Positions 24,213 through 57,893 of a DNA stretch of 64,000 nucleotides are shown here, one piece after another. The notes beneath the pieces are model-generated. The model was not told where the DNA came from and did not search any database. It was given only the letters and a program-made list of their open reading frames with translations. The translations under genes and the position numbers were made by a program. Within the stretch, counting starts at the first letter, position 1. Each line of letters opens with the position of its first letter. The DNA comes from Candidatus Binatia bacterium (GTDB lineage: Bacteria; Desulfobacterota; Binatia; HRBIN30), in NCBI GenBank assembly GCA_026415395.1, contig JAOAHD010000002.1:248001-312000 (forward strand). The letters run 5' to 3'.

Positions 24213-25786
24213 TCACTCCGGGCAGCCCTGCAACGCGAAACCGACCGCCCGAATCACCGTCGTAATGTCGACCTCCGCGCCCCGGGCATGTCCCTCAGCG
24301 CAGCTTCCCGCAGGGAGGAAACCGAGAATCATGTTGATCAGAGTGACGATCTCCTCCACGGTCACGGAGCGATCGCCGCTACAGTCGCCGATGCACGGAG
24401 CGACGGCGACGGTCGGACTCGGAGTGGCCGTTGGTTCGTTGGGGATCGTTGGCGTCGGCGTCGCTCCGGCGCACCGCTGATCTCAAGCGCGAAGCTCGCT
24501 TGAATTTGCTCGCCGACAGCGTCAGAAGCCGCGAGCGCGAAGTGGAATTCGCCGCCCGCAGTCGGTGTTCCCGAGAGCGTTCCGCTGTCTTGGTTGAGGT
24601 GAAGCCCGGGCGGAAGCACACCGTCGGCGAGCGCGAGTCGATAGGGTGGAGAGCCACCGTAAACAAGCACGGCGGGTCCGTACGCTTGTCCACGGGCGCC
24701 TGCGGGCAAGTTTTAGTCGGCAGCGGACAGCCCAACATCCACCGCGACATTTTGTGCACCGACGAACTCGCCCAAGTCCGAACAGCCGTTCACCGGTGCT
24801 TCGGCCGCCGTGGGAGTGTCGTCAGCCACGCAGGGCATCGCCTCGTTATTCTCCGGATCGCGTGGGCCTGTGTAGCGGTAGAACTCATAGCGGCGCACCA
24901 CCGCTCGCCGCCCTCGTGGCGAGGCTCCTTCGCGAATGTCAGCGTCTTCCTGATCCCCCTCCGCGTTGCCCGGCTTGGATTGATTGAGTTTCCACTCGGT
25001 TTCTACTTCGGTTTCGCCCGGGACGATACTGTCCCGCGCGCCGAGCAGTAGGCGCACGAGATCCGCCGGTTCTAGTTTCTCCTCGGATTCCACCTTGAAG
25101 ACCCTGAGCCACTGCGGCTCGCCATATTGCCCTTCGTGTTCCTCTTCGAGCGGCTCGAGCTCTGCCCGTACCGCGGCGGCCGCCACATTGCCGGGTGCTG
25201 GTCCGACTGCCGGCGGTTGCACATCCCACACCGGCACCGGCAGCGCGACCGTCACCGGCGAGGGAGCAAACGAAGTGTTTTGATTGACGGGCTCGGCTGC
25301 GACGAGCCAGCGGTAGGTGACCCGACTGGGATTGGCACGCAAGCTTACTCCGAAACGCTCGCAGTCGCTCTGTTCGTAGTTGCCTACGGGGCCACCGGCA
25401 AAACAGTCGTGCCCGTGCGGTTGGATCGCTTGGGCCACCGGCGTCGATGCCCATGCAGAGCCGCTCCAGCGGCGGTAACGCACTACGACCGTGGACGTTC
25501 CTGCAGGCACACTGGCGATTTCAGGGTCGCCATAGCGGCTGTACGTGCCACCGAAGGTGTAGGTGACATCCTCGGGATGAAGGCCTTCGATCTCGATTTC
25601 GAACCCGTGCGTGGGCTCGCCAGTGTCGTTCACAACGTCGAAATTCGCCAGCGTACCCACGGCTGGGCTTGCGCACGTAGCACGGGCGAACACAAGAACG
25701 GTGCAGGCAGCTAGCGTTGGTCCGATGCGGCCACGTAGCCGTCCGCGATGACGGCGTGCGGCGGCAACCTTGCGACGAGAAACCAT
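24213..25786 (-). pseudogene. decayed secreted protein with Ig-like and dockerin-like domains
   Basis: One ancestral gene appears split three ways. Positions 25786-24713 encode 357 aa with an N-terminal export segment and a beta-rich domain with Cys residues, ending LSAAD-TAA. Reading continues in the same frame past the stop as NLPAGARGQAYGPAVLVYGG, the start of an Ig-like putative domain (SGTLSGTPTAGGEF). Near 24465 the frame changes; in the new frame a TP-rich linker (GATPTPTIPNEPTATPSPT) runs into CIGDCSGDRSVTVEEIVTLI and ends FALQGCPE at 24213, a dockerin-like tail. One in-frame stop plus one frameshift explain the pieces. Sequencing error is possible at the frameshift but does not explain both. 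Confidence 0.75.
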
Positions 25787-38224: not shown

Positions 38225-39781
38225 TTACATTGGCGGGCAGCCGGACAGTGCGTGGCTTACGGCGAGCAAGATCTCGTCGATCGTCACGCTGCCGTCGCCA
38301 TCCTGATCCATTGTGGGGCATTGCGTGACCGGCGCCTCACCGAGCGCGGCTCGCACGCCGGCGACGATTTCGTCCACAGTTACGGTGCCGTCGCCATTGC
38401 AGTCGCCGCCGCAGGCCGCTGGCGGCGCACCAGGCACCTCCACGATCATTTCCCGTGGCCAGCCTAGGTTCCCGGCTTCATCGCGCAGCCGGACCTTGAC
38501 GATGGTTCGCCCCGGCCGAAACGCCCATGCCGAGGACATGACTGCGCAGAACTGCACCGTGCTACGGGGAGAGACGAAGTGGTCGGAACCATCGGGGAAC
38601 GACGTGCAGGCAAAATCCGCTTCGTCGCGGCCAAGCGGAGCTCCGGTCCCGTCGTCTACCCGGCAGCCGAAGTCATTGACCACGCGGATGACACCTTCCA
38701 AATCGAGAAATTCCAGCGACGGAGTGGCGGGAACGCCGCCAACCGTCGGGCGCCGCGTGTCGCACAACACAGGGCTTCCGTCACCTAGAGGACGCGACAA
38801 GAGAACTTGCAGGTCCGGCCAGCCATCGTCCACAAATGCGCGCAGGCCTACAGGTGCGCCGCTGCGACCGGGCCGGCCCTCGACAACAAAGAAAAAGCCG
38901 CTGCCTTGGGAAACTCGGTAAATCGGGCGGCCTTCGCTGTCGTATTCGTCGGGCGCGAACGGCCGCCCATCGGCGCGGGCCAAGCCCAAGTAAGTCAGCT
39001 CTGGTCCTGCCGGGCACGTCGGGGCATCGAAGGCAATCCAGTATGGCTGGTTCTCCGGCTTGCCGCAGCTACTCACGAGCAAGGTATACTGGCCAGTCAC
39101 AGGCGCCCGCCCGCTGAGGCGACCACCACAGGAATCACCGCGCGTCAGTGGCGTGCCATCCGGTTGAAACAACCGCAAGCGCATACGTTGCTCGCCGGCG
39201 CGCGGGAGCCCTTGCCCCGCCCACACGTCGATCTCGTCGCCCGCGCGCGCAAAAAAGCTGTACGCGTGGGTTTCGCCCACGGTCGCAAACCGGCGCACGA
39301 AGGGTACGGTGCCACAGGGGAGCGGCTCGCTGCAGTTACCCGCGCCCGCGGAGACCACCGAGGCGGTGATCACGAACGAACCACGATCGCGGCCAAAGCA
39401 ATCGGAGACCTCGATCTCGACATCCTCGTTGCGTCGCGCCTGAACGATGGCGGACCCAGTGCAAGTTGTTCCGCGGCCCACTTGCAGCTTGAGCAGGTCC
39501 AAGGTTCCGGAAACATCGACCGCATCGACCACCACCACGCTGTCGGCAGCTTGGGGCAAGAGAACGTAAGAGCGTTCCTTGCCGCTGTCCCGGTCCAACG
39601 TGCCGACCACGGGCTGCCCGCAGGCGAGGGGAATGGCATCGTCAGCAACCGCTGCCGAGGCCAAGGCAAACGCGGCCGTCCCGGCAGCCACGAAGCATAG
39701 AGCGACGCGTTGGCCGAGGCGCGCAATCCTCCCCTTCGGAAGTAAAGGTCGGTTTAACGAAAGGCGTCCTGTTCCACCCAT
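38225..39781 (-). CDS. secreted protein with PPC-like domains and C-terminal dockerin-like repeats
   Basis: 518 aa with a signal peptide (VALCFVAAGTAAFALASAAVA). Two beta-sandwich segments resemble pre-peptidase C-terminal (PPC) domains, one near residues 53-140 (ACGQPVVGTLDRDSGKERSY), the other about 150-260 (CGTVPFVRRFATVGETHAYS). The last 60 residues are a pair of EF-hand loops: GDCNGDGTVTVDEIVAGVRA and DQDGDGSVTIDEILLAVSHA, ending LSGCPPM. No catalytic domain was recognised. Its start overlaps the anti-sigma stop by 28 bp, so it is likely the third gene of the sigma operon. Confidence 0.75.
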   Translation of the reverse strand: MGGTGRLSLNRPLLPKGRIARLGQRVALCFVAAGTAAFALASAAVADDAIPLACGQPVVGTLDRDSGKERSYVLLPQAADSVVVVDAVDVSGTLDLLKLQVGRGTTCTGSAIVQARRNEDVEIEVSDCFGRDRGSFVITASVVSAGAGNCSEPLPCGTVPFVRRFATVGETHAYSFFARAGDEIDVWAGQGLPRAGEQRMRLRLFQPDGTPLTRGDSCGGRLSGRAPVTGQYTLLVSSCGKPENQPYWIAFDAPTCPAGPELTYLGLARADGRPFAPDEYDSEGRPIYRVSQGSGFFFVVEGRPGRSGAPVGLRAFVDDGWPDLQVLLSRPLGDGSPVLCDTRRPTVGGVPATPSLEFLDLEGVIRVVNDFGCRVDDGTGAPLGRDEADFACTSFPDGSDHFVSPRSTVQFCAVMSSAWAFRPGRTIVKVRLRDEAGNLGWPREMIVEVPGAPPAACGGDCNGDGTVTVDEIVAGVRAALGEAPVTQCPTMDQDGDGSVTIDEILLAVSHALSGCPPM

Positions 39782-40356
39782 CCTTCGGTGCCATCAGGCA
39801 GCGACACCCGATACCATTCTCGCTCCTCGCTTCCAACCGTAACGGCATCACCGCGTCGCAACGTGGCCACCACTTCGGCCTGTGGATGCGGCTCGCGGCG
39901 TACCAGCGCGGTGGCCGCGGATACTCTGATTGGTTGCTCGACGACCACCGCGCGGGTCCTCCGCTCGGGTGCGCGCGTCACCTGCCAGCTCCCGATTTGC
40001 ACGCCCACCACCAGCAGAACGCCCGCGGCCAGCGCCCAAGACAACACTGGTCGCGGGGGGAGCGGTAGGCGGACACGCCGAGCAAGGGTTGCTGCAGGCG
40101 CGTCCGCCACCGCTGTGGCAGCCGCACGGTGGGGGGTGGCTGCCACCTGCTCCACGATGTGCGGCGGCACCGCGATGCCGCCGGCACTCTCGAGTTGCCG
40201 CAACCGCTGGCGTGCGAGGGCCAAGGCACTCAAACAGGCATCGCAGTGCTCGAGGTGATGTTCGACCGAGCCCGCGGTTTCCTCATCGGCCAAGCCCAAG
40301 CCGTAAGCCAGCAAGCTTTCTTCCTCAGGGCAGCTTTGCTCTCGTTCAAGCTCCAT
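39754..40356 (-). CDS. anti-sigma factor with zinc-finger motif and C-terminal SH3-like domain
   Basis: 200 aa. N-terminal cytoplasmic ZAS-type motif HHLEHCDACLSAL (H-x3-C-x2-C) near residues 33-45, typical of anti-sigma factors. A membrane helix follows (VLSWALAAGVLLVVGVQIG, about 103-121). The periplasmic part ends with an SH3b-like domain (ATALVRREPHPQAEVVATL through EGWVEQDAFR), which could bind peptidoglycan or a ligand. It lies 3 bp after the sigma gene, so sigma and anti-sigma are made together. A ligand-sensing role is inferred from the domain layout. Confidence 0.8.
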   Translation of the reverse strand: MELEREQSCPEEESLLAYGLGLADEETAGSVEHHLEHCDACLSALALARQRLRQLESAGGIAVPPHIVEQVAATPHRAAATAVADAPAATLARRVRLPLPPRPVLSWALAAGVLLVVGVQIGSWQVTRAPERRTRAVVVEQPIRVSAATALVRREPHPQAEVVATLRRGDAVTVGSEEREWYRVSLPDGTEGWVEQDAFR

Positions 40357-46314: not shown

Positions 46315-47817
46315 TCACGGGGCAGCGCCGGAATGGCACTCGTGGCAGGGCGATTCTTTCCAATCCGAGCCGACATCGGCCGGGTGCTCGAACTCGAGGC
46401 CCGCGGCTGTGGTGGCGTACTGCTTTTTCTCGGGAGGCCCTTGTGCCCGAACGATGTGGCACAAGTTGCACTCACTGCGGATGATTCGGCCATCGTCGGC
46501 CGCGTGCTTTCCGGCATGGCAGCGAAAGCAGCCTGGCGAAAATAAATGGCTGGCGTGAGAGGGGTAGGCATCCCACCGCACCTTCATCTCCGGGAAGAAA
46601 TTTTCTGCATAAATCCGCTGCAGCTCGCGGACTGCCCGACCGATAGCATCGGTCTCTCGCTCGGCGACCTCGGGAAAGTTCGCACGGTAGTACGCTGGCA
46701 AACCATCCGCGATTGCGGCCAGCGCCGTCGCTCGATCAGGGTAATCCTCGGTTAGCAGCTCGATCGCTTCTTGTTTCAGCGAGGGCAGCCGCGGATCGAG
46801 CACACCCGCGGCCAAGGCCTCGTTTACAGTATCGCGAGGCGAACGGAATACGTGGGCGGGACGGTTGTGACAGTCGATGCAGTCCATCGTACGCCACTTC
46901 GCATCCGGCGGCGGATCCCCCTCAGCCTCGGCGGAACGGTAGAGTACGCGCTCACCGGTCGAGCGGTTCGTCGCCCGCACCCACAAGATCGTCGAACGGC
47001 TTTCATCCCCGGCGACGTATTCCACCACGTTCTCAACCTGCATGTGCCAGTGAATACCACTAGCGGCCGGTGTACCCGGCCGTCCGCCGCCGACCAGCAA
47101 TTCCAGGTCAGTTTCCCAGCGGCTGTTTTGCTCGTCGGCTAAGAAGTACACGTAACGGCGCCCGACGACGCCGTACGATTTTTCCGGCCAGTGGCAGGTT
47201 TGGCATGTCTCCGTAGCGGGGCGCAAGTTGTGAATCGGCACGGGAATGGGGCGCGCGTAGCGATGGGTGAGGTAGGCATACAGTTGCCGCACCCCGGAGA
47301 CTTTCGACCGAATGTACCAGTCGGCCCCCGAGCCGACATGGCACTCCACGCACGCGACCCGCGCGTGCGGCGAAATCTGATAGGCAGCGTACTCCGGCCC
47401 CATTACATGGTGGCACAACGCCCCGCAAAACGTCACCGACTCAGTGGCCTCGTACGCTTGGAAGGCACCGAACGCCGACAAGAACAAAAATCCGGTGCCC
47501 GCAGCGGCTGCGCCAGCCACCGCCCGACGGGTCGCGGCGCGATTCAAGTCGATCACCGGCCACTCTAACACCCAAGGCGCCCCGGTGCGCTTCCAGCGCC
47601 GCCAGCTCCACCACCAGCCTACCGGCACCAGCGCCAAACCGAAGAGCAAAAAAGCCGGGGTTACGATGAAGATGACAATGCCCGCATACGGCGCTGAAGG
47701 ACCGGGGGCTAGAGTGTCGTACAGCCACAGGAACACGAAGGCGACCAGGGCGAGAGCAGCAATGGCCCAGCCGGCCGTCGACAGGGGATTTCGCCACAAG
47801 GACGGACGCTCGCTCAT
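46315..47817 (-). CDS. NapC/NirT-family heptahaem inner-membrane cytochrome, ImcH-like
   Basis: 500 aa from the ATG at 47817, overlapping the upstream stop (ATGA). Three predicted membrane helices (about 15-35, 45-67 and 100-120) precede a periplasmic domain with seven haem sites: a CX3CH at Cys131 (CGALCHHVM), then CxxCH at 156, 205, 313, 430, 450 and 491. VACVECHVGSGADWYIRSK and RPIPVPIHNLRPATETCQTC match quinol-oxidising NapC/ImcH proteins. ImcH of Geobacter is, from memory, also a seven-haem inner-membrane quinol oxidase that feeds extracellular electron transfer at high potential. Likely the entry point of the cluster. Confidence 0.82.
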   Translation of the reverse strand: MSERPSLWRNPLSTAGWAIAALALVAFVFLWLYDTLAPGPSAPYAGIVIFIVTPAFLLFGLALVPVGWWWSWRRWKRTGAPWVLEWPVIDLNRAATRRAVAGAAAAGTGFLFLSAFGAFQAYEATESVTFCGALCHHVMGPEYAAYQISPHARVACVECHVGSGADWYIRSKVSGVRQLYAYLTHRYARPIPVPIHNLRPATETCQTCHWPEKSYGVVGRRYVYFLADEQNSRWETDLELLVGGGRPGTPAASGIHWHMQVENVVEYVAGDESRSTILWVRATNRSTGERVLYRSAEAEGDPPPDAKWRTMDCIDCHNRPAHVFRSPRDTVNEALAAGVLDPRLPSLKQEAIELLTEDYPDRATALAAIADGLPAYYRANFPEVAERETDAIGRAVRELQRIYAENFFPEMKVRWDAYPSHASHLFSPGCFRCHAGKHAADDGRIIRSECNLCHIVRAQGPPEKKQYATTAAGLEFEHPADVGSDWKESPCHECHSGAAP

Positions 47818-49988
47818 GGTCGCACCGAAAACCCCAAAGCATGCGGGTGGCAAGTGAAACAAGGGAACGTGAAGTGCGGCTCTCCGCCGCCGTCGCTGCG
47901 GAAGAAACGCGTGGCTGTGTGGCACACTTCGCAAAGCCCGGATCCGGGCTCGGACACGCTGGTGAAGCCCGCATCGTCTTGTCCGCGCAGGTTTTCGAGG
48001 CGGAGCGGGCGCTCGCCGCCAGCGGGGGACACGATCCGATCACGAATCAGGAACAAGTTCGGGCTCCCGTGCGGTTGGTGGCAGTTGGCACACTCGGAGT
48101 CAGTGCCAGAAGCGGGGTCGTGGTGGGTCTTGCGCTCGCTGCCATGACACTCGACGCACGCCACGATGGACTGATGTCCCTCGCCATAGCGAGCGCCCGT
48201 GTTCGCCATGTGACACTTCTCGCACTCAATTACCAGCGTGCCATGAGTGAACTGCCAGGCGCGGTCGGCCGTGCTGCTATGACAAAACGTACAAGTCCCG
48301 AACACGCGCCGCGCACCGCTGTCGTGCGCTACACCGACAAAGCTCGGCACCAACTCCGCTGTTGGCAACGACCGATGTGCCGGACCGAAATCGCCGAGCC
48401 GCTGATCATGGCAAACGACACAGCCCAGCTCGGCCGCATTGCTGGCAGCCACGCGCTCAGACAAGTCGCGATGGCAGTACGCACACGTCCCGAAGGGCTG
48501 CCAAATCCCAAGCGCGTGGTCCGCACCGACGAACGCCGGCACCAGGGTGGCGTCAGGCATCCGTCGATGCCCCGGCCCGTAGACACCCGCCGTCACTTCT
48601 CGATGGCACACGGTGCAAGACAATTCCGCCGTCACCGGCGCGAGATTCGTCGCCAGTTGGGCGTGGCAATAGGCACAACTTCCCGAGCGCGCCACCGCAG
48701 CGCTCGGCCGATGGGGATCCGCAGGTGGATTGGGCACCAGCGCCGACGACGGCCGGCGGCGATGTCCCGGCGCGAACATGCCCGGGAGGGCATCGGCATG
48801 GCACGTGTCGCAACGAACGTCCGACGGCGGCCCAAGCACACTTTCCAGCGCGCGCGTCTGTTCGTTGTGGCACAAGGCGCAAGCGCCCCAAACCCGCTCG
48901 GGCCCCGGGGCGTGGGGGTCGGCGGCCGGCACGGGCACGAGATCCGGTCGGGGTAAATCGAAGTGTCCGGGACCGAACTGCCCGGGAATTTGCTCACGGT
49001 GGCAGGTGCTGCAAGCGAGCCCCTCTGCCGCCCCACCCAAGGCGTGCATTTGTTGTGCAACCTTGTTGTGACACAGGGCGCACGTTCCCCAGGTGCGCTC
49101 TGCATCAGGTCGATGCGGCTCGCTCGGTGGGTTCGGCACAACGGTGGCCGGGGGGAGGGTATAATGGCCGGGACCGAAGCGGCCGGGCGTTTGCTCGCTG
49201 TGGCACGTGCTGCAGGAGAGCTCGAACTGCGAGCCGAATGCCTCTTGCAGATCGCGCGCGACCTGGTTGTGGCAAAGTGAGCACGAGCCCCAGGCGCGTT
49301 CGTCACCGAGAGCGTGCGGGTGTGTTGCAGGTTCGGGTACGACCTCGTCTCCGGGCAAAGTGAAATGGCCGCGACCAAACTGACCTGGGGTTTGCTCACG
49401 ATGGCAGGTGCTGCACGCGAGCTCACGGGCGACCGGGCCGAGGGCCTGCATTTGTCGCGCGACCTCGTTGTGGCACAAGGAACAAGAACCCCAGGCCCGT
49501 TCCGCCCCAGGAGCATGGGGATCCGCTGCCGCTTGCGGAACGATGCTGGTGTTCGGAAGGCTGCGGTGTCGGGGGCCGAACGCGGCGGTGATTGCAGTCG
49601 GGTGGCAGGTTTCGCAGCGCACCGTGTCGGCAAACGCGAGCATCGCTCCACCGGTGGCATTGTGGCAAAAGGCGCAGGCGCCGAACACGGCTTCTGCTCG
49701 CAGGCGGTGGCCAGCCGGGGGGAAGGAAGGAACGAGCACCGTGGAGGGAATTGCGCGGTGTCCAGGACCGGCAACCCCCGGGCGCGCATCGGCGTGACAG
49801 GTGGTACACGCGAGCACGTTGGCCACCGGTAACACGCCGTTGGCCTCGTCGGCATGGCAAAATGCGCAAGTGCCGAAAGCGGTCGCGACCGGCGGCGGGC
49901 TGCCGGAATACTGCGGAGCGCCCGGGTCGCCGCAACTCGTGGCCAGCCAGGCGATCCCGGCAATCGTGAGGGAACGCACGCGAATCAC
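47814..49988 (-). CDS. 22-haem lipoprotein cytochrome built of nine dihaem repeats
   Basis: 724 aa starting at GTG 49988 with GGAGGGAGG upstream, overlapping the previous stop (GTGA). Signal peptide with lipobox IAWLATSC (Cys19 lipidated). Twenty-two CxxCH motifs: first-of-pair Cys at 41, 105, 169, 236, 303, 370, 438, 502 and 566; second at 61, 125, 192, 259, 327, 393, 458, 523 and 589; then 611, 633, 686 and 710. Repeat unit looks like WGSCSLCHN, CSTCHREQTPGQFG-GH, then P-HAPG. Each unit also supplies two more His (GH and PH), enough for bis-His ligation. Probably a long electron-carrying wire on an envelope membrane. Confidence 0.9.
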   Translation of the reverse strand: MIRVRSLTIAGIAWLATSCGDPGAPQYSGSPPPVATAFGTCAFCHADEANGVLPVANVLACTTCHADARPGVAGPGHRAIPSTVLVPSFPPAGHRLRAEAVFGACAFCHNATGGAMLAFADTVRCETCHPTAITAAFGPRHRSLPNTSIVPQAAADPHAPGAERAWGSCSLCHNEVARQMQALGPVARELACSTCHREQTPGQFGRGHFTLPGDEVVPEPATHPHALGDERAWGSCSLCHNQVARDLQEAFGSQFELSCSTCHSEQTPGRFGPGHYTLPPATVVPNPPSEPHRPDAERTWGTCALCHNKVAQQMHALGGAAEGLACSTCHREQIPGQFGPGHFDLPRPDLVPVPAADPHAPGPERVWGACALCHNEQTRALESVLGPPSDVRCDTCHADALPGMFAPGHRRRPSSALVPNPPADPHRPSAAVARSGSCAYCHAQLATNLAPVTAELSCTVCHREVTAGVYGPGHRRMPDATLVPAFVGADHALGIWQPFGTCAYCHRDLSERVAASNAAELGCVVCHDQRLGDFGPAHRSLPTAELVPSFVGVAHDSGARRVFGTCTFCHSSTADRAWQFTHGTLVIECEKCHMANTGARYGEGHQSIVACVECHGSERKTHHDPASGTDSECANCHQPHGSPNLFLIRDRIVSPAGGERPLRLENLRGQDDAGFTSVSEPGSGLCEVCHTATRFFRSDGGGEPHFTFPCFTCHPHALGFSVRP
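48174..49877 (-). repeat. coding tandem repeat, nine dihaem modules of about 64-68 codons
   Basis: Inside the 22-haem gene. The middle modules repeat at 201 bp (for example, equivalent CxxCH codons near 49471, 49270, 49069 and 48868), the outer ones at 192 bp. Similar DNA between modules shows that the gene grew by duplication of one dihaem unit. Confidence 0.85.
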
Positions 49989-50560
49989 CGCCCGCCTCCC
50001 TCCTTTTCGTGGCAAGCCACGCAAAGTTCGTTGCCGCCAATCGGCAGCCGCAAAAAGCCAGTGGATTTGGGCGCGAACGACCACTCGACGTCTCCGGCTT
50101 CTGCTCGGGTGGCGAGCAATGCGTGAATCTTCTCCTCAAGCGCCTGGCGGATTTCCATTGCCAGGCCCTCGCTCGGGAGCGTGCGTGGGGCGGCCAAAGT
50201 CACCTCGTCAACGCGCGGGTCGTGAAACAAGTGACAAGTCCCACAGTACATGCGGCCGTCCTCAGCGAGCGGGAACTCCAGCCGTACCTTTTCCTTAGGT
50301 GGCAGCAAGCGCTCCACTTGCGCTGCGGTGGCACGCAAATGCTCAGCCGAGCCACTGTGCAACGTGCGGTCGTGGCAGCTCAGGCAGGTCTCTTCTTTCG
50401 AGGAGAGCAAGTTTTTGTCCTCGTCGTGGCAAATGGCGCACTTCTCCTCGTCAGCCTCCCCATCGGGCTTGAGCATCCAGTGGGGGTTGTCCTCGTTGCT
50501 CGCTGCCCGCGCGGGCGTGCTCAGCAGGAACAGCAACCATAGCCATACGACGCGTTTCAT
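49985..50560 (-). CDS. tetrahaem periplasmic cytochrome c
   Basis: 191 aa from the ATG at 50560, overlapping the previous stop (ATGA). Cleavable signal peptide (VVWLWLLFLLSTPARAA), no lipobox Cys. Four CxxCH motifs at Cys41 (CAICH), 59 (CLSCH), 106 (CGTCH) and 180 (CVACH). Charged helical stretches between suggest a soluble shuttle. It lies between the dihaem and 22-haem lipoproteins and could carry electrons across the periplasm. No family name is certain. Confidence 0.85.
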   Translation of the reverse strand: MKRVVWLWLLFLLSTPARAASNEDNPHWMLKPDGEADEEKCAICHDEDKNLLSSKEETCLSCHDRTLHSGSAEHLRATAAQVERLLPPKEKVRLEFPLAEDGRMYCGTCHLFHDPRVDEVTLAAPRTLPSEGLAMEIRQALEEKIHALLATRAEAGDVEWSFAPKSTGFLRLPIGGNELCVACHEKEGGGR

Positions 50561-50865
50561 CGCCCGACTCCATTGTCGCCGTGGCACGCGCTGCAGCTTG
50601 CCTCGCCCTGGTTTGCAACGACCTGGCGGATAAACGTGAGGTCCAGGTCGGGGATGCCGGTGCGATTCACCAGGTGTAGCTTGTGTGGCGGGTGGCAAGC
50701 AAAACAGTCGGCACGGCCCCAGCCTGAGGGATGTTCCTCCGCAACCAAAATCAACCCCGCAGGCGACTCCAACAAATTTCCGTAGTTCTCGCTGGTCGGA
50801 GGCGCATCTTCCCCGCAGGCTGCCAGCCAGCAGACAAACACGACTCCCCATAGCCGTCGCATCAT
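50557..50865 (-). CDS. small dihaem lipoprotein cytochrome
   Basis: 102 aa from the ATG at 50865, overlapping the previous gene stop (ATGA); a second ATG follows directly. Lipobox VCWLAACGED with Cys17 lipidated. Two haem sites, CFACH at Cys54 and CSACH at Cys91. The HKLHLVNRTGIPDL stretch supplies extra His. Small size suggests a connector or capping subunit of a larger complex. Confidence 0.82.
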   Translation of the reverse strand: MMRRLWGVVFVCWLAACGEDAPPTSENYGNLLESPAGLILVAEEHPSGWGRADCFACHPPHKLHLVNRTGIPDLDLTFIRQVVANQGEASCSACHGDNGVGR

Positions 50866-51515
50866 CCGCCCCCTCCGATGCCGCTCATGCGATGGCACTG
50901 AATACAGAAATCCGCCCGGTGACAACTGCTGCATTGCATCGGGTTGGCCCACGCTTCGATGGAGTGAAAGAAGCGAAAACCACGCTCGTGGACACGGGTA
51001 TCGATGGTGTCGCGGCGCGCGTGGCAGTCCGCGCACTCTTGCTCGTGGTGGCAATCTTGGCAGCGCTGGTTGTCGGCCTGGCTTACCGTGGCGTGTGCCG
51101 TTTGCCAGCCGGCACGATGATCGTCGGGAAGCAAAGGCCACAAGTTGCCGTGACAAGCGAGACACCGCCGCGGTGCCGCCAGCATTTTGTATTCGCCCGA
51201 TAAATGGCACGAATGGCAGGCCGTGCTGCCGGGGTGGAATGCGTAGGCGGACAAAGTTTTCGCCAGCTCTTCATCGTCGGTTTCGATCCGCAAGGCAAAG
51301 GAGTGGCAGTCCACGCACACCACGCCGCGCTCCTGCAGGGCACGGCGATGCGCGGCGTGATCGAAGCGCTGCCGCGCATCGCGGGTGCTCATCCGCCTCG
51401 CTGCTTCGGTTCGCGGTTGCAGATAAGCAGTCGTCGGTAGCCATTGCCGGCAACCGCTAACTAAAGGGATTGCCACGGCGGCCACGAAAGCGACCAGGAC
51501 CAGCCGACGCGTCAC
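50862..51515 (-). CDS. heptahaem lipoprotein cytochrome
   Basis: 217 aa. Start chosen as GTG 51515, which overlaps the barrel stop (GTGA) and has AGGAGG nine bases upstream; a longer GTG start at 51524 lies too close to that site. Signal peptide with lipobox IPLVSGC, Cys22 lipidated. Haem Cys at 67 (CVDCH), 100 (CHSCH), 118 (CLACH), 152 (CQDCH), 161 (CADCH), 195 (CSSCH) and 204 (CIQCH). Directly after the barrel gene, it may be the periplasm-side cytochrome plugging the barrel, as OmaB does in Geobacter porin-cytochrome complexes; that role is inference. Confidence 0.85.
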   Translation of the reverse strand: MTRRLVLVAFVAAVAIPLVSGCRQWLPTTAYLQPRTEAARRMSTRDARQRFDHAAHRRALQERGVVCVDCHSFALRIETDDEELAKTLSAYAFHPGSTACHSCHLSGEYKMLAAPRRCLACHGNLWPLLPDDHRAGWQTAHATVSQADNQRCQDCHHEQECADCHARRDTIDTRVHERGFRFFHSIEAWANPMQCSSCHRADFCIQCHRMSGIGGGG

Positions 51516-52849
51516 CCAGCCCACCCTCCTGGATAACGTAACACTGGACGTTCGATCGTAGGCGTCTGCCAGCCGTTGCGGTAACGGAGATTGTACGTGA
51601 GGAACAATCCGAGCCGGAATTCCCGATCGAAGCGCGGTGAGCGGTTGCCCTCGAAATTCACTTCCATCAACAAGCCCGGGGACAGCTCGTAGCCGACGCC
51701 TAAGCGACCACTCACTACCGTGTCCTGTTCATGAGTTCGCTTATCGAAGCGAGCAATCTCGATCTTGGTGCGAAACAAAATCTTCTGGTAAACGCGGTTC
51801 TCGTAATAGGCCCGCAGCGCAGCCAAGCTTCCGCCGCGGCTGTCGGTAACCGCAAACTCAGCGCGAACGACTTCCAGCCCGTCGCCTTCTGGAAGCCAGA
51901 GCAAACCCACGCTGCCCTGGTTGCCTTCCACCCCCTGTCCCGGAGATGTTTCGAACGATTGAAAGCCATAGTCGAGCGAGCACGACAAGTTTGCACGCAG
52001 TTGATACTGCAAGCCTGCCCGCGCTTGACGCAAGGCACTTACGGAAAAGAGCGAGAATAGCGGATCCGCGAAGCGGTCGAGTCCAGGCAAAATCGCGCCC
52101 GAGCGTTGCTCTGGTTTGTAATACGTTCCCTCGAGGCGAGCGAAAACGCGCGGATGCAGCACCAGCCCCGCACCGGCTGTGGCTTGTTGGAAATTCCGTT
52201 CCGCGGTGTCGTAAGCGGCCAAAGCGTAAGTCTGCGGACGCAGTGGCAACTGCGCAAATGATTGTGCCCAAGTAAGACCGGCAAGCTGGCTCACGCGCTG
52301 CTGCTCGCGTTGGACCTGGGCGAAACTCGCGACCAACTGCCCCAGCGGGCGCGATCGCCAACGCGCCGAACCACCGAACACTTGCTCGTCTTGCGAAACC
52401 AACTCAGGTCCGCGCAGCGGCTCGAAATAGCGCGGTTGTCCCCCGAATACGGAGACAGCAAGCGGACCGCCACGGTCGATGCGCAACCTCCCGGCATCGG
52501 CAACGGTGATCGCGCCAGGCACTTCGTCAATCAGTTGTCGGCCCAAGGAAAGCTCGATGCCGCGGATTGGCACACGGGCAAAGCCAAGGTAAAAGTCGGA
52601 CGCACTGTCCGCCCGGCTCCAATCGCGCGCCAAGCGGAAATAGGTCTCTCCACCGACGCCGTGGTGCAGATCAGGAGCCAAGATTGCACCGTACAAGTTG
52701 GTCGGCGCTTCTGTGGAGTCGCGGGCAAAGCCCTCGCGCAGTTGGCTGTTTCCGGTCATACCCGCCGAGAAATCCGCAGCGCTCGCTCCGGCTGCCCACA
52801 GCCCTGCTACCGCAGCCCACCCGAGCACCACCCGAAACGGCCACCGCAT
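51512..52849 (-). CDS. outer-membrane beta-barrel, putative porin of a cytochrome conduit
   Basis: 445 aa from the ATG at 52849; GTG 52864 adds five residues. Signal peptide (VVLGWAAVAGLWAAGASA). The mature part of about 420 residues alternates amphipathic beta strands (GETYFRLARDWSRAD, GIELSLGRQL, RVFARLEGTYYKPEQ, ILFRTKIEIARFDKR, LGLFLTYNLRYRNGW), roughly enough for 18-20 strands. No haem motifs. It is much shorter than MtrB/PioB (about 700 aa and 26 strands). Position between an extracellular decahaem gene and lipid-anchored cytochromes argues for a porin-cytochrome conduit, similar in idea to OmbB, but sequence similarity was not recognised. Confidence 0.78.
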   Translation of the reverse strand: MRWPFRVVLGWAAVAGLWAAGASAADFSAGMTGNSQLREGFARDSTEAPTNLYGAILAPDLHHGVGGETYFRLARDWSRADSASDFYLGFARVPIRGIELSLGRQLIDEVPGAITVADAGRLRIDRGGPLAVSVFGGQPRYFEPLRGPELVSQDEQVFGGSARWRSRPLGQLVASFAQVQREQQRVSQLAGLTWAQSFAQLPLRPQTYALAAYDTAERNFQQATAGAGLVLHPRVFARLEGTYYKPEQRSGAILPGLDRFADPLFSLFSVSALRQARAGLQYQLRANLSCSLDYGFQSFETSPGQGVEGNQGSVGLLWLPEGDGLEVVRAEFAVTDSRGGSLAALRAYYENRVYQKILFRTKIEIARFDKRTHEQDTVVSGRLGVGYELSPGLLMEVNFEGNRSPRFDREFRLGLFLTYNLRYRNGWQTPTIERPVLRYPGGWAG

Positions 52850-52953
52850 TGGATTACCCGGCACTGCCGATTGCTCACGCGCCCGGCGACATGGTCTGCC
52901 TCGATCCGCTGGAACCCCTGCTTCGCTCGTGCACCAGCTTGCTTAAGCCATCT

Positions 52954-55476
52954 TCAGAACGCCCGTGCATGCGCACCCGAAACCGGGAACGAGCGTCCCT
53001 CCGCGTGGCAGACTGCACAGGCTTCGTGTCCGGCGCTTGTCGTTTGCGTGGCAGCATGGGCTTTGGCCACTGCACCATCGTGGCACGAGGTGCATGCCGA
53101 TGTGATCGGTCCTTCGCGTCCGTCGACGACCTCGTTGCCAGTAACCGGATCGAGATGGGTGAGCAGCGAGCCCTTGGCAGGTCCGGGGAACGGCGGGATC
53201 AAATACGTGCTGGCCAGGTGGCAGGTGCGGCAATTGCGCCGATCGCCAGGGAACAGAACCTCGGAGAAATCGAAGCGCGTGAAGTTAACCGGTGGCGGGC
53301 CGAAGCCATACACGATGTAAGGCTTTTGCTCCAACTCTTCGCCGGTGTGGATTTTGTGAATCAGCACTTTGAAATCGATGGTGGCCGTAGCATCGCCGGC
53401 CGCTACCGCTGCTGAATCCCGCCGGCGGCGCGCCACGTCGGTTTGATCGGGATTGTGGCACATGACGCAGTACTCCATGGAGTTGCGGAGATTCCCGTGC
53501 ACGCTGAAATCGACGGAAAAGTCGCCGTGGCACTGCGCGCAAAGCTGATCATCCACGACTGCCCGACGCACCACTGGCGCAGAGCCGTCGACGCTAAAGG
53601 TCACCACCGGGTTCGATGCCGCTTCCTGAAACGTCTTCGGGCCAATCGGATCGATCCCCGCCAAGGTGACCTGCCGCCGCGCCTCAGCGCCGATCGCCCA
53701 GGTGCCGCTTGCACTCGCAGGGATGGGGAACGGGAAGCGGTAAGTAAAGAGGCCGCTCTCGTCGGGGCCGGCCAACGTGCCTGACGCCCCTGCCCCGGCG
53801 GCTACCGCCACGAGCATGCTTGCGTACTCTGTCGTGGGTCCACTCAAGGTAAAGGCCAATCGGTTAAGGCGGGAGAGATCGGTCAAAGCAGTGCCATTGC
53901 GGTCGGTCACCCGGAACGACACCGTCGGCCTTTGTCCAGCACCGTGATCGCGAAGGCCGACGATGTTCACTGCCAAGCCAGCAAGCTGGCGCGAGCGACC
54001 CGGGACCACGTGCGCACCAGCAACGGAGACATCGAATTCTCGCCCGGAGTCGGCCTCGTGGCAAAAAGCACAGTCGCCATCCTCGAACCCACGTCCTTGG
54101 AAGTGATTGGTTCCCGGCTCGCCCGCTGCAGTCGGTTGCGTGGATGGATTCACATCGTCGTGGCATGACGTGCAAGCTGCAGTGCTCGGGCGGGTAAGGT
54201 GGTATGAAGCCGTGGCGCCGTCGCTGTGGCATACAGCGCAGTACTCGATGGCACGCGGGAAGCCGACACCAGTGACCGTTCCGTCCGCATGCTTTTCGGC
54301 AAACACGATATCCTGGCGCTGAAAGCTGCTGTAGATGGCGTACTTGGTTCCCGGCGGCCCGGAAACAACCGAGGGCAGCTCCTTGCCGCGGTGAATTTTA
54401 TGCACCATCACGCCCATATCCACGCTGCGCCCGCGTTCATCCACGGCCTCCTGGGTGTGGCACAGCGTGCACAGGCGGAGTTCGCGCCGATTGCCGTGGG
54501 CAACGAGAGGATCGTGGCAACTATTGCATTGTGCCGTGGTGCTGCCGGCGCGAATTTGCGGAGTGCCACCCCCCGGCACGAAGTCGAACACCGGGTTGGC
54601 GCTACGCTGCACGCCCTCGAGGAGTCGGTCGACTTGCAGTCCGACGGTGTAGGTGGCACCGGCAACCACATTTTCGAGTGTCCGCCGGAAGGTGTAGCGG
54701 TAGAGACCGCGGGTGGCGTCCACCGTTTCCAGCGTGCCGCCCGAGTCGTACGCCGGCCGCGTGCGGTTGATGTCGTTCACATACCGGTCAAAGGAGCGGT
54801 TGAACTCCCCGCCGCCGGCGTACTCTTCGATGTGCGCTAGCGTAAAACGCACCCGTGCCTGCGCCGGGTTTTGCGTCGCAGTCAAGACTGGAGTGAGAGG
54901 CGTGCCATCGTCCGCCGTCAAGGTAAACAGCACGCGCAAGCGGCGGCTGTCATCGAAACTTGCGTCGACAATCGCGGATTTCACCCCTTGGCCCACGGGT
55001 GTGGGGAGAACGATCGGGGTGGCCGTCCGCGATGCAGTGGGAGAAGGAGTTTCCGGTGGCGATGGAGTCGGCGTCGCCGTGAACGCTGCAGCCGTGGGCG
55101 TCGGTGTCGGCTCGGCCACGGTAGGACTGGGAGAAAAAGGCGCGATCGTGGGCGTGGGCGTTGGCTCCGCGGCAGTAGGGGTCGCGGTTGGCGACGCCTG
55201 CGGGCATCCCTGCAACACGGCGATCACTGCTTGCAGGATCTCCTCGATGGAGACCGTTTGATCCCCATTGCTGTCGGCTGCCGGGCAGGCGGCGATGGCA
55301 GCCGAGCCGAGCGCGATGTTCACAGCAGTCACAACTTCGTCCACCGTCACCTCGCCATCGCCATTGCAATCGCTGACGCAGATCGCCCCTGCTGGTCGAG
55401 AGGATGCACCCAGGGCAAAAGCTACCACGGCCGCAATCACGAGCCCTTCGAACCACCGCATAGCCGATCCACTCAT
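52954..55476 (-). CDS. OmcA/MtrC-like decahaem cytochrome with N-terminal dockerin-like domain
   Basis: 840 aa from the ATG at 55476, with AAAGGGGG upstream. Signal peptide 1-31 (ends RPAGA). Residues 33-92 hold two EF-hand loops, CVSDCNGDGEVTVDEVV and ADSNGDQTVSIEEIL, ending LQGCP. A Thr/Pro-rich linker covers 93-160. Two beta-domain plus pentahaem units follow: haem Cys at 317, 336, 413, 435, 469 and at 646, 670, 749, 795, 820. VMVHKIHRGKELP and VLIHKIHTGEELE match OmcA/MtrC decahaem proteins, which reduce metals outside the cell. No lipobox, unlike MtrC. First gene of the cluster. Confidence 0.9.
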   Translation of the reverse strand: MSGSAMRWFEGLVIAAVVAFALGASSRPAGAICVSDCNGDGEVTVDEVVTAVNIALGSAAIAACPAADSNGDQTVSIEEILQAVIAVLQGCPQASPTATPTAAEPTPTPTIAPFSPSPTVAEPTPTPTAAAFTATPTPSPPETPSPTASRTATPIVLPTPVGQGVKSAIVDASFDDSRRLRVLFTLTADDGTPLTPVLTATQNPAQARVRFTLAHIEEYAGGGEFNRSFDRYVNDINRTRPAYDSGGTLETVDATRGLYRYTFRRTLENVVAGATYTVGLQVDRLLEGVQRSANPVFDFVPGGGTPQIRAGSTTAQCNSCHDPLVAHGNRRELRLCTLCHTQEAVDERGRSVDMGVMVHKIHRGKELPSVVSGPPGTKYAIYSSFQRQDIVFAEKHADGTVTGVGFPRAIEYCAVCHSDGATASYHLTRPSTAACTSCHDDVNPSTQPTAAGEPGTNHFQGRGFEDGDCAFCHEADSGREFDVSVAGAHVVPGRSRQLAGLAVNIVGLRDHGAGQRPTVSFRVTDRNGTALTDLSRLNRLAFTLSGPTTEYASMLVAVAAGAGASGTLAGPDESGLFTYRFPFPIPASASGTWAIGAEARRQVTLAGIDPIGPKTFQEAASNPVVTFSVDGSAPVVRRAVVDDQLCAQCHGDFSVDFSVHGNLRNSMEYCVMCHNPDQTDVARRRRDSAAVAAGDATATIDFKVLIHKIHTGEELEQKPYIVYGFGPPPVNFTRFDFSEVLFPGDRRNCRTCHLASTYLIPPFPGPAKGSLLTHLDPVTGNEVVDGREGPITSACTSCHDGAVAKAHAATQTTSAGHEACAVCHAEGRSFPVSGAHARAF

Positions 55477-55706: not shown

Positions 55707-57893
55707 ATGCCAGGGTTTGGTCGTGCGGCGTCGGCGCTGTTCTTGGGTTGCGCATTTTTCGCGGCTGGAGCGCGGGCGCTCTGTCCGGGGGATTGCAACC
55801 GCAACGGTGAGGTCACCGTGGATGAAGTGATCCTCAGCGTGCGCTTGGTCCTACAGGAAGAGAGCCTTGGAGCGTGCGCGGCGGCGGACGCCAACGGCAA
55901 CGGTGAGGTTACGGTAGACGAAATTGTGCGCGCGGTGCGCGCGGTGCTGGAGGGCTGTCCCGGGTCGGTGGTCTACTACGACCGCGAAGACCTGCGCCGC
56001 ACGAATCCGTTCCCGGATGACTACTGGCTCGCGGACGATGCGAATCAGCCGACGGGGGTGCGGTTGAACATTGCGCCCCCGGTTGCCACCAGCGATGTAA
56101 ACGGCATCTTCCGCATTTTGCTCCGCGAGGTAAACCGCCTCGATGGCTTTAGCCCCATTGCCCATTTTGTCATCGAGCTGAGCGACGCGCCCGATCTCCA
56201 ATCCCTGCCGCTTACGCCCGCGGAATCTTTGGAAAGCGGGCAGAGCATCGGCTTGTTCGATCTCACCCCTGGATCGCCCACGTTCGGCCAGCGCGTGCCG
56301 TTTCGGATCATGGTGCGCGATGAAGCCAGCGTGCTCGGCGTGCGCAGCCACAGTCTCTTGCTCTTCCCTTCCATCTCGTTAACGCCGGGGGGACGGTACG
56401 GCTTGGTGGTGGCTGCGCCGCTGCGGAATGTCGCGGGAGAGCCGTTTCGCCCCACGCCGTTTTTCCGGCGCGTGCTCGGAGCCGAGCAAGCGGGCGACAG
56501 CGCTGCGGTACGCAAGGTGCGAGCGCTCAGCCGTGAGGTGCTCAGTGTGGTCGCAGAGCGAGAACCGGCGCTTGCGAGCTCTGCCTTGCTAGCCGTTCGC
56601 TTGTCGGTGCGCAGCATGCGCAGCATTGCTGACGACTTGCTGGCCATCAAAGAGCAGGTGGACAACGCCCCGCCGCCTCGATTCGAGGTCTCTCTGGTCA
56701 CGCCGGAAAGTTCACCGACGAGTGCTGTGGCTGCCATTGTGCGAGGCACCTGGGAGGCGCCGGATTGGCGCGACGGCTTGTACTTGGCGCGCGACGCCAA
56801 TGGGCGCCCGCGGCAAACCAAGACCAATCGCGTCGGCTTCGTTCTGGCGTTGCCCAAAGCCAGCCTGGAGCGGCCTGCGCCCATTACCATGTACCAGCAT
56901 GGCAACCCGGGAAGCGCGGAGCGTGAGGTGCCCATCGAGGCGCGCGATTATCTGGCAAGCGCGGGATTTGCGGTGGCAGGGTTTACCGACAATTTGAATC
57001 GCGAAGTCAGCGCCGGCGCAACCAACCAGGAAGAGGCCATTGTGCGGCAGGTGACCGCAGTGTTCTTCGCTCTCGTGCAAGATCGCCGCATCCCCGATTA
57101 CTGGACGGAGCTCAACGCCGAACAACTGGCTTTCGTGCGCTTGCTCAAAAGCCTCGGCTCGTTGGACGTGCTGCCGGTGGGGGCGCCGGACGGAGTGCCG
57201 GATCTCGATCCTTCGCTGCCCCTTACCTACGTAGGCATCAGTCAGGGTGCAAATTATGCCCCGGGCTTGTTGCCGTACGCACCCGAAATTGGCGCGGCTG
57301 CGTTGGTAGTTGGCGGGGCGCGTCTCACGGAAACGTTGATCCACCAGCGGCCCGATGACTTCGTGCGTCTGCTCGGCCAAGTGTTCCCCAACATGACGCC
57401 GGCCGATATTTGGACCGCCATGTCGCTCTTCCAGCACGGCTTCGATCGGCAAGACGAACACAATCACGGCCGTTTTTTGTATCGCGAACCGTTGGAAGTG
57501 GCCGGCACACGCAAAAAAGCGAGCGTGTTGCTCACCGAGGGCTTGGAAGATTCGCTAGTTCCCAACCACACCACCGAAGCCTTGGCCTGGCTCATGGGAC
57601 CCATTCCCCACCTTGCCCCGGTGCAACGCCCGGTGCCGTTTTTGTCAGTCGTCAGCGGACCCTTGCAGGGCAACATCGATGCCCAGACCACCGCTGCCTT
57701 TTTCCAGTTCGTCCCCACCGGAATTCCTAATCTACCCCCGACACCCGGCTGCGCGGCACTCTCGCCGGCCATCGGCAGTGAAGGCCATTACTGTGCGCAA
57801 GACGCAGCCGAAGCCCGCCGCCAACGCATCGAATTCCTGCGCTCCGCCCTAGAAGGAGCGGCCCCGCGCATCATCGACCCGTTCGCTCCGTAG
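55707..57893 (+). CDS. secreted alpha/beta hydrolase-like protein with N-terminal dockerin-like domain
   Basis: 728 aa. Signal peptide (ALFLGCAFFAAGARA). Residues 26-85 form two EF-hand loops, CPGDCNRNGEVTVDEVI and ADANGNGEVTVDEIV, ending LEGCPG. After a beta-rich region come hydrolase features: PITMYQHGNPGSAER, a Ser elbow LTYVGISQGANYAPG, ASVLLTEGLEDSLVPNHTTE with an acidic residue and His. The triad order fits the fold, but the elbow GISQG is slightly non-standard. Likely an extracellular esterase or lipase-like enzyme. Divergent from the cytochrome cluster and sharing its dockerin-like domain. Confidence 0.75.
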   Translation: MPGFGRAASALFLGCAFFAAGARALCPGDCNRNGEVTVDEVILSVRLVLQEESLGACAAADANGNGEVTVDEIVRAVRAVLEGCPGSVVYYDREDLRRTNPFPDDYWLADDANQPTGVRLNIAPPVATSDVNGIFRILLREVNRLDGFSPIAHFVIELSDAPDLQSLPLTPAESLESGQSIGLFDLTPGSPTFGQRVPFRIMVRDEASVLGVRSHSLLLFPSISLTPGGRYGLVVAAPLRNVAGEPFRPTPFFRRVLGAEQAGDSAAVRKVRALSREVLSVVAEREPALASSALLAVRLSVRSMRSIADDLLAIKEQVDNAPPPRFEVSLVTPESSPTSAVAAIVRGTWEAPDWRDGLYLARDANGRPRQTKTNRVGFVLALPKASLERPAPITMYQHGNPGSAEREVPIEARDYLASAGFAVAGFTDNLNREVSAGATNQEEAIVRQVTAVFFALVQDRRIPDYWTELNAEQLAFVRLLKSLGSLDVLPVGAPDGVPDLDPSLPLTYVGISQGANYAPGLLPYAPEIGAAALVVGGARLTETLIHQRPDDFVRLLGQVFPNMTPADIWTAMSLFQHGFDRQDEHNHGRFLYREPLEVAGTRKKASVLLTEGLEDSLVPNHTTEALAWLMGPIPHLAPVQRPVPFLSVVSGPLQGNIDAQTTAAFFQFVPTGIPNLPPTPGCAALSPAIGSEGHYCAQDAAEARRQRIEFLRSALEGAAPRIIDPFAP

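Follow-up and report, generated by a model that had tools for sequence, protein, structure and literature searches.

The window analysed here is a stretch of 64,000 nucleotides from Candidatus Binatia bacterium (GenBank assembly GCA_026415395.1, contig JAOAHD010000002.1, positions 248,001 to 312,000 of the forward strand), and the gene of interest occupies positions 52954-55476 of that window. It is read from the minus strand as 840 codons; the plus strand of the same coordinates is broken by stops. The encoded protein is a c-type cytochrome of the OmcA/MtrC family whose N-terminus carries a small dockerin-like module. It scores 361.8 bits with TIGR03507, whose curated cut-off is 209.3, and 164.2 bits with PF22113, and its ten haem motifs (CXXCH) fall into two pentahaem units, residues 317-469 and 646-820. 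The gene and its parts are as follows.

52954..55476, minus strand: OmcA/MtrC-family decahaem c-type cytochrome, 840 amino acids, with N-terminal dockerin-like module (TIGR03507, PF22113, ten CXXCH)
55384..55476, minus strand: signal peptide, residues 1-31, predicted cleavage AGA-IC, without lipobox (read from the sequence)
55201..55380, minus strand: four-cysteine, twin EF-hand, dockerin-like module, residues 33-92 (profile, predicted fold)
54991..55200, minus strand: threonine/proline-rich (T/P-rich) linker, residues 93-162 (80% T/P/S/A)
54058..54528, minus strand: first pentahaem unit, CXXCH at 317, 336, 413, 435 and 469 (motif positions)
53005..53541, minus strand: second pentahaem unit, CXXCH at 646, 670, 749, 795 and 820 (motif positions, PF22113)

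The original prediction had described two EF-hand loops at residues 33-92 ending in GCP, a T/P-rich linker and two pentahaem units, and had noted that no lipobox cysteine follows the signal peptide. All of this was borne out. The module runs from Cys33 to Pro92, ends GCP, and contains two 12-residue EF-hand loops, DCNGDGEVTVDE and DSNGDQTVSIEE. The protein has 24 cysteines, 20 of them in haem motifs and the other four all within the module. Its start reads ...SSRPAGA-IC..., with an isoleucine before the first cysteine and hence no lipobox, and the two same-genus orthologues (...STAQA-VC and ...SLAQA-AC) likewise have none, so that the lipobox is absent in three of three genus members. Lipobox and signal-peptide calls were made by eye and with a crude pattern. 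The concern that the module might be removed with the signal peptide was not borne out, since the module follows the predicted cleavage site. The open reading frame (ORF) runs upstream of the chosen start, which could mean that the start codon is wrong or the gene an artefact and that the real protein is a lipoprotein; this is hardly credible, as signal peptide and module stand at the same place in three species.

The window protein shares with MtrC, OmcA and MtrF of Shewanella the family (TIGR03507, PF22113) and the ten haems in two pentahaem units. The Shewanella decahaem proteins differ in being lipid-anchored, according to the parts of PMC6929479 available to us, while the window protein has no lipobox and has the dockerin-like module and T/P-rich linker. 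The same parts of that paper report that OmcA and MtrF without their lipid anchor are released into the medium. Because removal of the lipid anchor releases them, some other anchor would be needed if the window cytochrome is to stay on the cell.

The structure of the module was predicted with AlphaFold2 from 43 copies (alignment A3: 41 of the 47 copies of at least 55 bits in the organism's own genome, six being dropped by choice, plus two from relatives). The model had a predicted local distance difference test score (pLDDT) of 94.5 and a predicted template modelling score (pTM) of 0.79. When it was compared with the PDB by Foldseek, the first 15 rows were all dockerins, with E values of 0.015-0.08 and none below 0.001. 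VIA-align 2 returned dockerins as 27 of 28 entries, the other being a non-dockerin EF-hand at Z 3.0. The model thus predicts a dockerin fold, in which two loop-helix calcium motifs that lack the entering E-helix are arranged as in dockerins. The two halves of the module are 47% identical on average over 51 copies, versus 9% for shuffles, and such internal symmetry is typical of dockerins.

Other results weigh against a dockerin. The best VIA-align 2 match, with 61 residues aligned at 2.9 A, had a Z of 7.3; below 8, a shared arrangement can arise by chance. By its sequence profile the module comes closer to EF-hands of the calmodulin type, and a PDB sequence search with that profile found calmodulin-like proteins. 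In type I dockerins, position 12 of the calcium loop is Asp; the module has Glu there, in 49 of 51 copies for loop 1 and 48 of 51 for loop 2. Pfam Dockerin_1 (PF00404) gave 13.6 bits on the window copy, under the gathering cut-off of 22.9, and matched 25 of the 43 copies at E up to 1 (best 5e-4); Pfam EF-hand_1 matched all 43. Judged by its model, the module should work like a dockerin, though it is not classed as a Pfam type I dockerin.

Its cysteines were typed in 53 copies, with 8 left untyped. Three copies lack both the first and the fourth, and five lack one of the two (Fisher p 0.006), which is suggestive of a pair. The second and third are both present in 51 of 53 copies, and being near-invariant they are uninformative about pairing. 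The module is presumably braced by disulphides.

The module is not confined to the cytochrome. A profile made from three window copies found 60 matches in the 3.69-Mb genome, the three source copies included. The best three matches (E about 1e-34) are the source copies themselves, and the next has an E of 2.1e-26, so the module is well beyond chance. Besides the copy in the cytochrome, the following lie in the window.

55707..57893, plus strand: divergent neighbour of the cytochrome gene, 728 amino acids, module directly after the signal peptide (Pfam: only sub-cut-off EF-hand matches)
55779..55961, plus strand: module copy in the divergent neighbour (profile)
38234..38416, minus strand: module copy at the C-terminus of ORF 38228-39793 (profile)
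24219..24395, minus strand: module copy at the C-terminus of the 89-residue ORF 24216-24482, whose upstream part is apparently in another frame (profile)

The position of the module was counted in 50 of the 60 ORFs, leaving out 10 whose copies score below 40 bits. It is N-terminal in 17, C-terminal in 29 and internal in 4. By the crude pattern, a signal-peptide-like start was seen in 40 of these 50 and none was found in 10. Twenty of the module proteins were scanned with Pfam, and the cargo was varied: a trypsin-like protease, a matrixin-type protease, a DUF3604 protein, propellers of the YCF48, NHL and FG-GAP types, and a cytochrome P460 domain. Among all 60 ORFs, only the decahaem protein has more than two CXXCH. 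The original prediction had treated the module as a feature of the cytochrome; its presence there stands, but with 60 matches a cytochrome-specific domain was rejected in favour of a genome-wide tag.

Two other roles for this tag were set aside. A tag that works at either end of a protein does not fit sorting of the sortase or exosortase type, and because the module occurs at either terminus it is not taken to be a cleaved sorting signal. Lipidation at its first cysteine was rejected because the preceding residue varies (I, L, S, A, R, W, Q and others) and because the same cysteine is present in C-terminal copies. A permissive lipobox pattern flagged 5 of the 50 module ORFs. On inspection by eye, the flagged site lies inside the protein in L065 and is the module's own cysteine in L048, and two cases (L047, L053) are ambiguous. 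The fifth is the divergent neighbour, and neither of its two orthologues in the genus shows the flagged lipobox. A general exclusion between module and lipobox was therefore not confirmed in these 50 ORFs with this permissive pattern.

Across the class, the module profile (E up to 1e-6) matched 15 of 15 genomes of one order and none of the 133 others. This order is probably HRBin30 of the Binatota, because the nearest relatives among named genomes are Bacterium HR30 and Candidatus Binatia bacterium, at 81 and 80% core identity; the available parts of PMC8262859 describe that order.

Orthologues of the cytochrome were sought in 58 genomes, the organism's own included, and here the module and the lipobox seem to trade places. 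The module stands at the same place, after a signal peptide without lipobox, in two other species of the genus (G001, G002). A lipobox and linker stand in place of the module in G012, G005, G019, G003, G011 and at the named locus L114. In a tree of core sequences, the three proteins with the module group together (100/100) within a clade of ten (100/100). All three lack the lipobox that marks the MtrC/OmcA type, and of the other seven, six are lipoproteins and one, the orthologue of G006, has an unreadable N-terminus. The tree was made from 29 sequences picked by hand from a set of 111 core ORFs (107 loci) that includes some genes twice, and L121 was labelled a lipoprotein by eye and not by the pattern. 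A single replacement of lipobox by module in this genus is the simplest account of these sequences. The original prediction held that homologues lacking the module would count against it. Outside the genus the module is indeed absent, but the readable homologues of the enclosing clade have a lipobox instead, and this favours an anchoring role.

The wider family gives a less tidy picture. A scan of named genomes, of which the best 80 of 239 matches were kept, gave 79 homologues. By pattern, 14 of these have a lipobox, 2 have the module (both of them the other genus members), and 63, many from Acidobacteria, have neither; among the 63, 3 have no readable N-terminal hydrophobic stretch. Because 63 of 79 show neither, the decahaem family can do without lipobox or module, which counts against anchoring of any kind being strictly required. 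It also favours an account in which the module is no cell anchor and serves as a calcium-dependent element for stability or secretion, for example one seen by type II secretion, with the cytochrome released as OmcA and MtrF are when they lack a lipobox (PMC6929479, in the parts available). We consider this quite improbable, as the module is found at either end of proteins and on unrelated cargo, and occupies an anchor's place.

In the sister pair G021 (L091:241-3693) and G041 (L110:958-3804), a different cysteine-rich N-terminal domain and a T-rich linker precede the decahaem core, and no lipobox was seen in either. A profile of that domain matches 54 of 148 genomes of the class, with up to 12 matches each, and the domain may be another tag comparable to the module.

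The known partner of a dockerin is a cohesin. Matches to Pfam Cohesin (E up to 0.001) occur in 14 of the order's 15 genomes and in 6 of the 133 others, or in 13 and 5 when the curated cut-off is applied; the Fisher p is 4e-14, without correction for descent. In the related genomes G001 and G002, one protein (L205 and L206) has a lipobox-like TGC or IGC, an N-terminal domain of 200 residues, a long T/P-rich stalk and three terminal tandem cohesins, scoring 93.9 and 96.4 bits with PF00963 against a cut-off of 24.1. With several cohesins and a predicted cell anchor, these proteins would by their sequences qualify as cell-surface scaffoldins. The first cohesin of the G001 protein was modelled with a pLDDT of 98 and a pTM of 0.90, and aligned to solved cohesins over 131 residues at 1.8 A with a Z of 18.5. 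PDB entry 5nrm tops both Foldseek lists, that of the cohesin and that of the module.

Of the order's 15 genomes, 12 have the N-terminal domain of the scaffold; outside the order, 3 of 133 genomes gave weak matches to it. Cohesin-like repeats follow it in eight genomes (G001, G002, G003, G004, G007, G008, G010, G012), a count that rests partly on repeats read by eye. In the genome-wide Pfam scan, cohesins were found at 35.3 bits in G010 and, together with its neighbours, at 24.5 bits in G008; in full-length Pfam scans, L218 and L219 matched no family and L230 fell short of the cut-off at 19.2 bits. All 21 aligned cohesins (alignment A6) share two invariant cysteines, which perhaps form a disulphide.

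Together these results lead us to think, with some confidence, that a noncovalent, calcium-dependent anchor made of the dockerin-like module and a cohesin replaced the lipid anchor of the decahaem cytochrome. The cytochrome would be exported by its ordinary signal peptide and would then cross the outer membrane. Its N-terminal module, with calcium bound, would plug into a cohesin and so hold the cytochrome at the surface. The cohesin would belong to a scaffold protein that has a lipid anchor and a long T/P-rich stalk to carry it, and the cytochrome's own linker of about 70 residues would let the ten-haem wire swing between an adjacent porin-cytochrome conduit and acceptors outside. Across the order, many more exported proteins would use the same plug. 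For the decahaem protein we infer that it binds calcium and cohesin, lies at the surface and takes part in electron flow.

Several observations in the organism's own genome weigh against this anchor. A search for a cohesin-like receptor, as the original prediction had proposed, found one cohesin only (29.3 bits; 24.6 in the full-length scan). It lies in a protein (L065:2893-5214, minus strand, contig C16) with a signal peptide, the cohesin, about 500 T/P-rich residues and then a C-terminal copy of the module; this protein is possibly an adaptor scaffold. The multi-cohesin lipoprotein was not found in the assembly, which is 95.8% complete, and the genome's two relatives of the scaffold N-terminal domain are without cohesin. 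Close relatives of the two genes that flank the G001 scaffold are also missing, the best being 36% and 39% identical; an assembly gap and a loss of the locus are both possible. The genome has 7 matches to Pfam Dockerin_1, 6 of them over the cut-off, and these Pfam-type dockerins may be the real partners of the cohesins. Beyond this genome, the module occurs in one order alone and the cohesin mostly there, which makes their co-occurrence close to a single evolutionary event. The idea that the EF-hand domain is an anchor or docking element thus draws support from the predicted dockerin fold, the position at which a lipobox would stand and the cohesin proteins of the order, and is weakened by the single cohesin in the genome that carries the gene.

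The rival that we take most seriously starts from the same observations. Here the module would be a general surface anchor for a target other than cohesin, such as lipopolysaccharide or surface polysaccharide bound via calcium, and the cohesins would serve the Pfam-type dockerins. It would explain why 60 module matches face one cohesin in this genome, and the seven Dockerin_1 matches could be the cohesin cargo. The module at the far end of L065's stalk of about 500 residues also looks like an anchor at the stalk base, which is where S-layer homology (SLH) domains sit in clostridial scaffolds. Set against this, the module's predicted fold is that of a dockerin, whose known partner is cohesin, and eight relatives have their cohesin-like repeats behind a lipobox N-terminal domain, where a second anchor would be unnecessary. 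On balance we judge the general anchor unlikely and prefer the cohesin as the partner of the module.

Both halves of that pairing resemble known systems in part. The predicted folds of the module and of the relative's cohesin match the type I cohesin-dockerin pairs of cellulosomes (PDB 5nrm, 1ohz, 6kgc). The module differs from a cellulosomal type I dockerin in its four cysteines, its Glu at loop position 12 and its sub-cut-off Dockerin_1 score, and the system differs from a cellulosome in that the scaffold of the relatives is a lipoprotein and the scanned cargo consists of cytochrome, proteases and propellers. Clostridial cell-surface scaffoldins anchored by SLH domains also carry cohesins on a linker-rich surface protein, as the relatives' scaffold does, but the relatives have a lipobox anchor, and the only cohesin protein found in the organism's own genome ends in the module.

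Dockerin and cohesin proteins outside cellulosomes are known already. In the parts of PMC5244752, PMC9012536 and PMC10553843 available to us, anaerobic methanotrophic (ANME) archaea and syntrophic sulphate reducers are described as having many of them, multi-cohesin proteins included, alongside extracellular electron transfer. The same parts link these proteins to surface attachment as well, and give an adhesion role with multihaem cytochromes only as a hypothesis. Their named cargo is ABC-type binding, S-layer and adhesin proteins and not an MtrC-type cytochrome, and those parts describe no swap of anchors. Among open-licence PMC papers, as far as their available text goes, none was found with a dockerin on an MtrC-type cytochrome or with the module in Binatota, and PMC12133095 mentions neither dockerin nor Binat-.

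A broader proposal can be made, more tentatively than that of the anchor itself and with a little more doubt than belief. The order HRBin30 may have its own equivalent of the cellulosome, Gram-negative in type and unrelated to cellulose, in which stalked lipoprotein scaffolds with cohesin arrays collect some of about 60 disulphide-locked, dockerin-tagged proteins, among them proteases, propellers and this genus's decahaem cytochrome. Electron-transfer wires would then sit in exchangeable arrays and the cytochrome's lipid anchor would be dispensable. If the anchor reading is true, this is a natural exchange of a covalent lipid anchor for a noncovalent plug on an electron-transfer protein, and cohesin-dockerin pairing without cellulose gains a concrete cargo and a concrete receptor. 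It would make testable the function of non-cellulosomal dockerins, the surface organisation of uncultured Binatota and the mounting of cytochromes in arrays, and it would supply natural parts with which other cells could be made to display decahaem cytochromes.

Downstream of the decahaem gene, on the same strand, an ORF of beta-barrel character is accompanied by five cytochrome ORFs, whose CXXCH counts are 7, 2, 4, 22 and 6.

51512..52864, minus strand: 450-residue outer-membrane beta-barrel-like protein, candidate porin of a conduit (sequence character only)
50862..51524, minus strand: cytochrome with 7 CXXCH, lipobox-like VSGC (domain scan, motif count)
50557..51210, minus strand: ORF with 2 CXXCH, lipobox-like LAAC, likely start inside the ORF (translation, motif count)
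49985..50851, minus strand: cytochrome with 4 CXXCH (domain scan, motif count)
47814..50084, minus strand: cytochrome with 22 CXXCH, lipobox-like ATSC (domain scan, motif count)
46315..47934, minus strand: NapC/NirT-type cytochrome with 6 CXXCH, candidate inner-membrane quinol-side member (PF03264 at 37.5 bits, motif count)

The beta-barrel-like ORF had no match in Pfam or NCBIfam. By inference, the neighbourhood has the make-up of a conduit across the outer membrane. Because three of these cytochrome ORFs have lipobox-like starts, the organism probably makes lipoproteins. MtrC is held by MtrAB, and with a barrel-like ORF and five cytochrome ORFs next to the decahaem gene, the cytochrome could similarly be held by a porin partner while the module provides further contacts, with other surface proteins or with neighbouring cells. 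For ANME archaea and the bacteria that partner them, an adhesin role of cohesin and dockerin proteins has been proposed (PMC9012536 and PMC10553843, in the parts available), which fits such a role. This account gives no reason for the lipobox being missing just where the module occurs, and we give it very little weight.

The divergent neighbour could have been the source of the cytochrome's module. This was not supported: the pair is 52% identical, and other copies from the same genome aligned with 42-62%. Nor was a second swap from lipobox to module found at this gene. Its homologues in six genomes, the organism's own included (L252-L257), all have the module, and in a second copy in G004 (L258), whose start lies outside the region printed, none was seen. 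Three more distant matches (L259-L261) also turned up, and the comparison covers the other seven loci.

Variants of the module were also noted. In G001, the gene after the multi-cohesin lipoprotein (L242:10427-12292, plus strand) starts with a longer, six-cysteine form, and a form like it is present in the organism's own genome at L048:1507-2976. In the window, the protein of ORF 24216-24482 (minus strand) likely continues upstream to about 26000 in another frame, pointing to a frameshifted gene or an assembly error.

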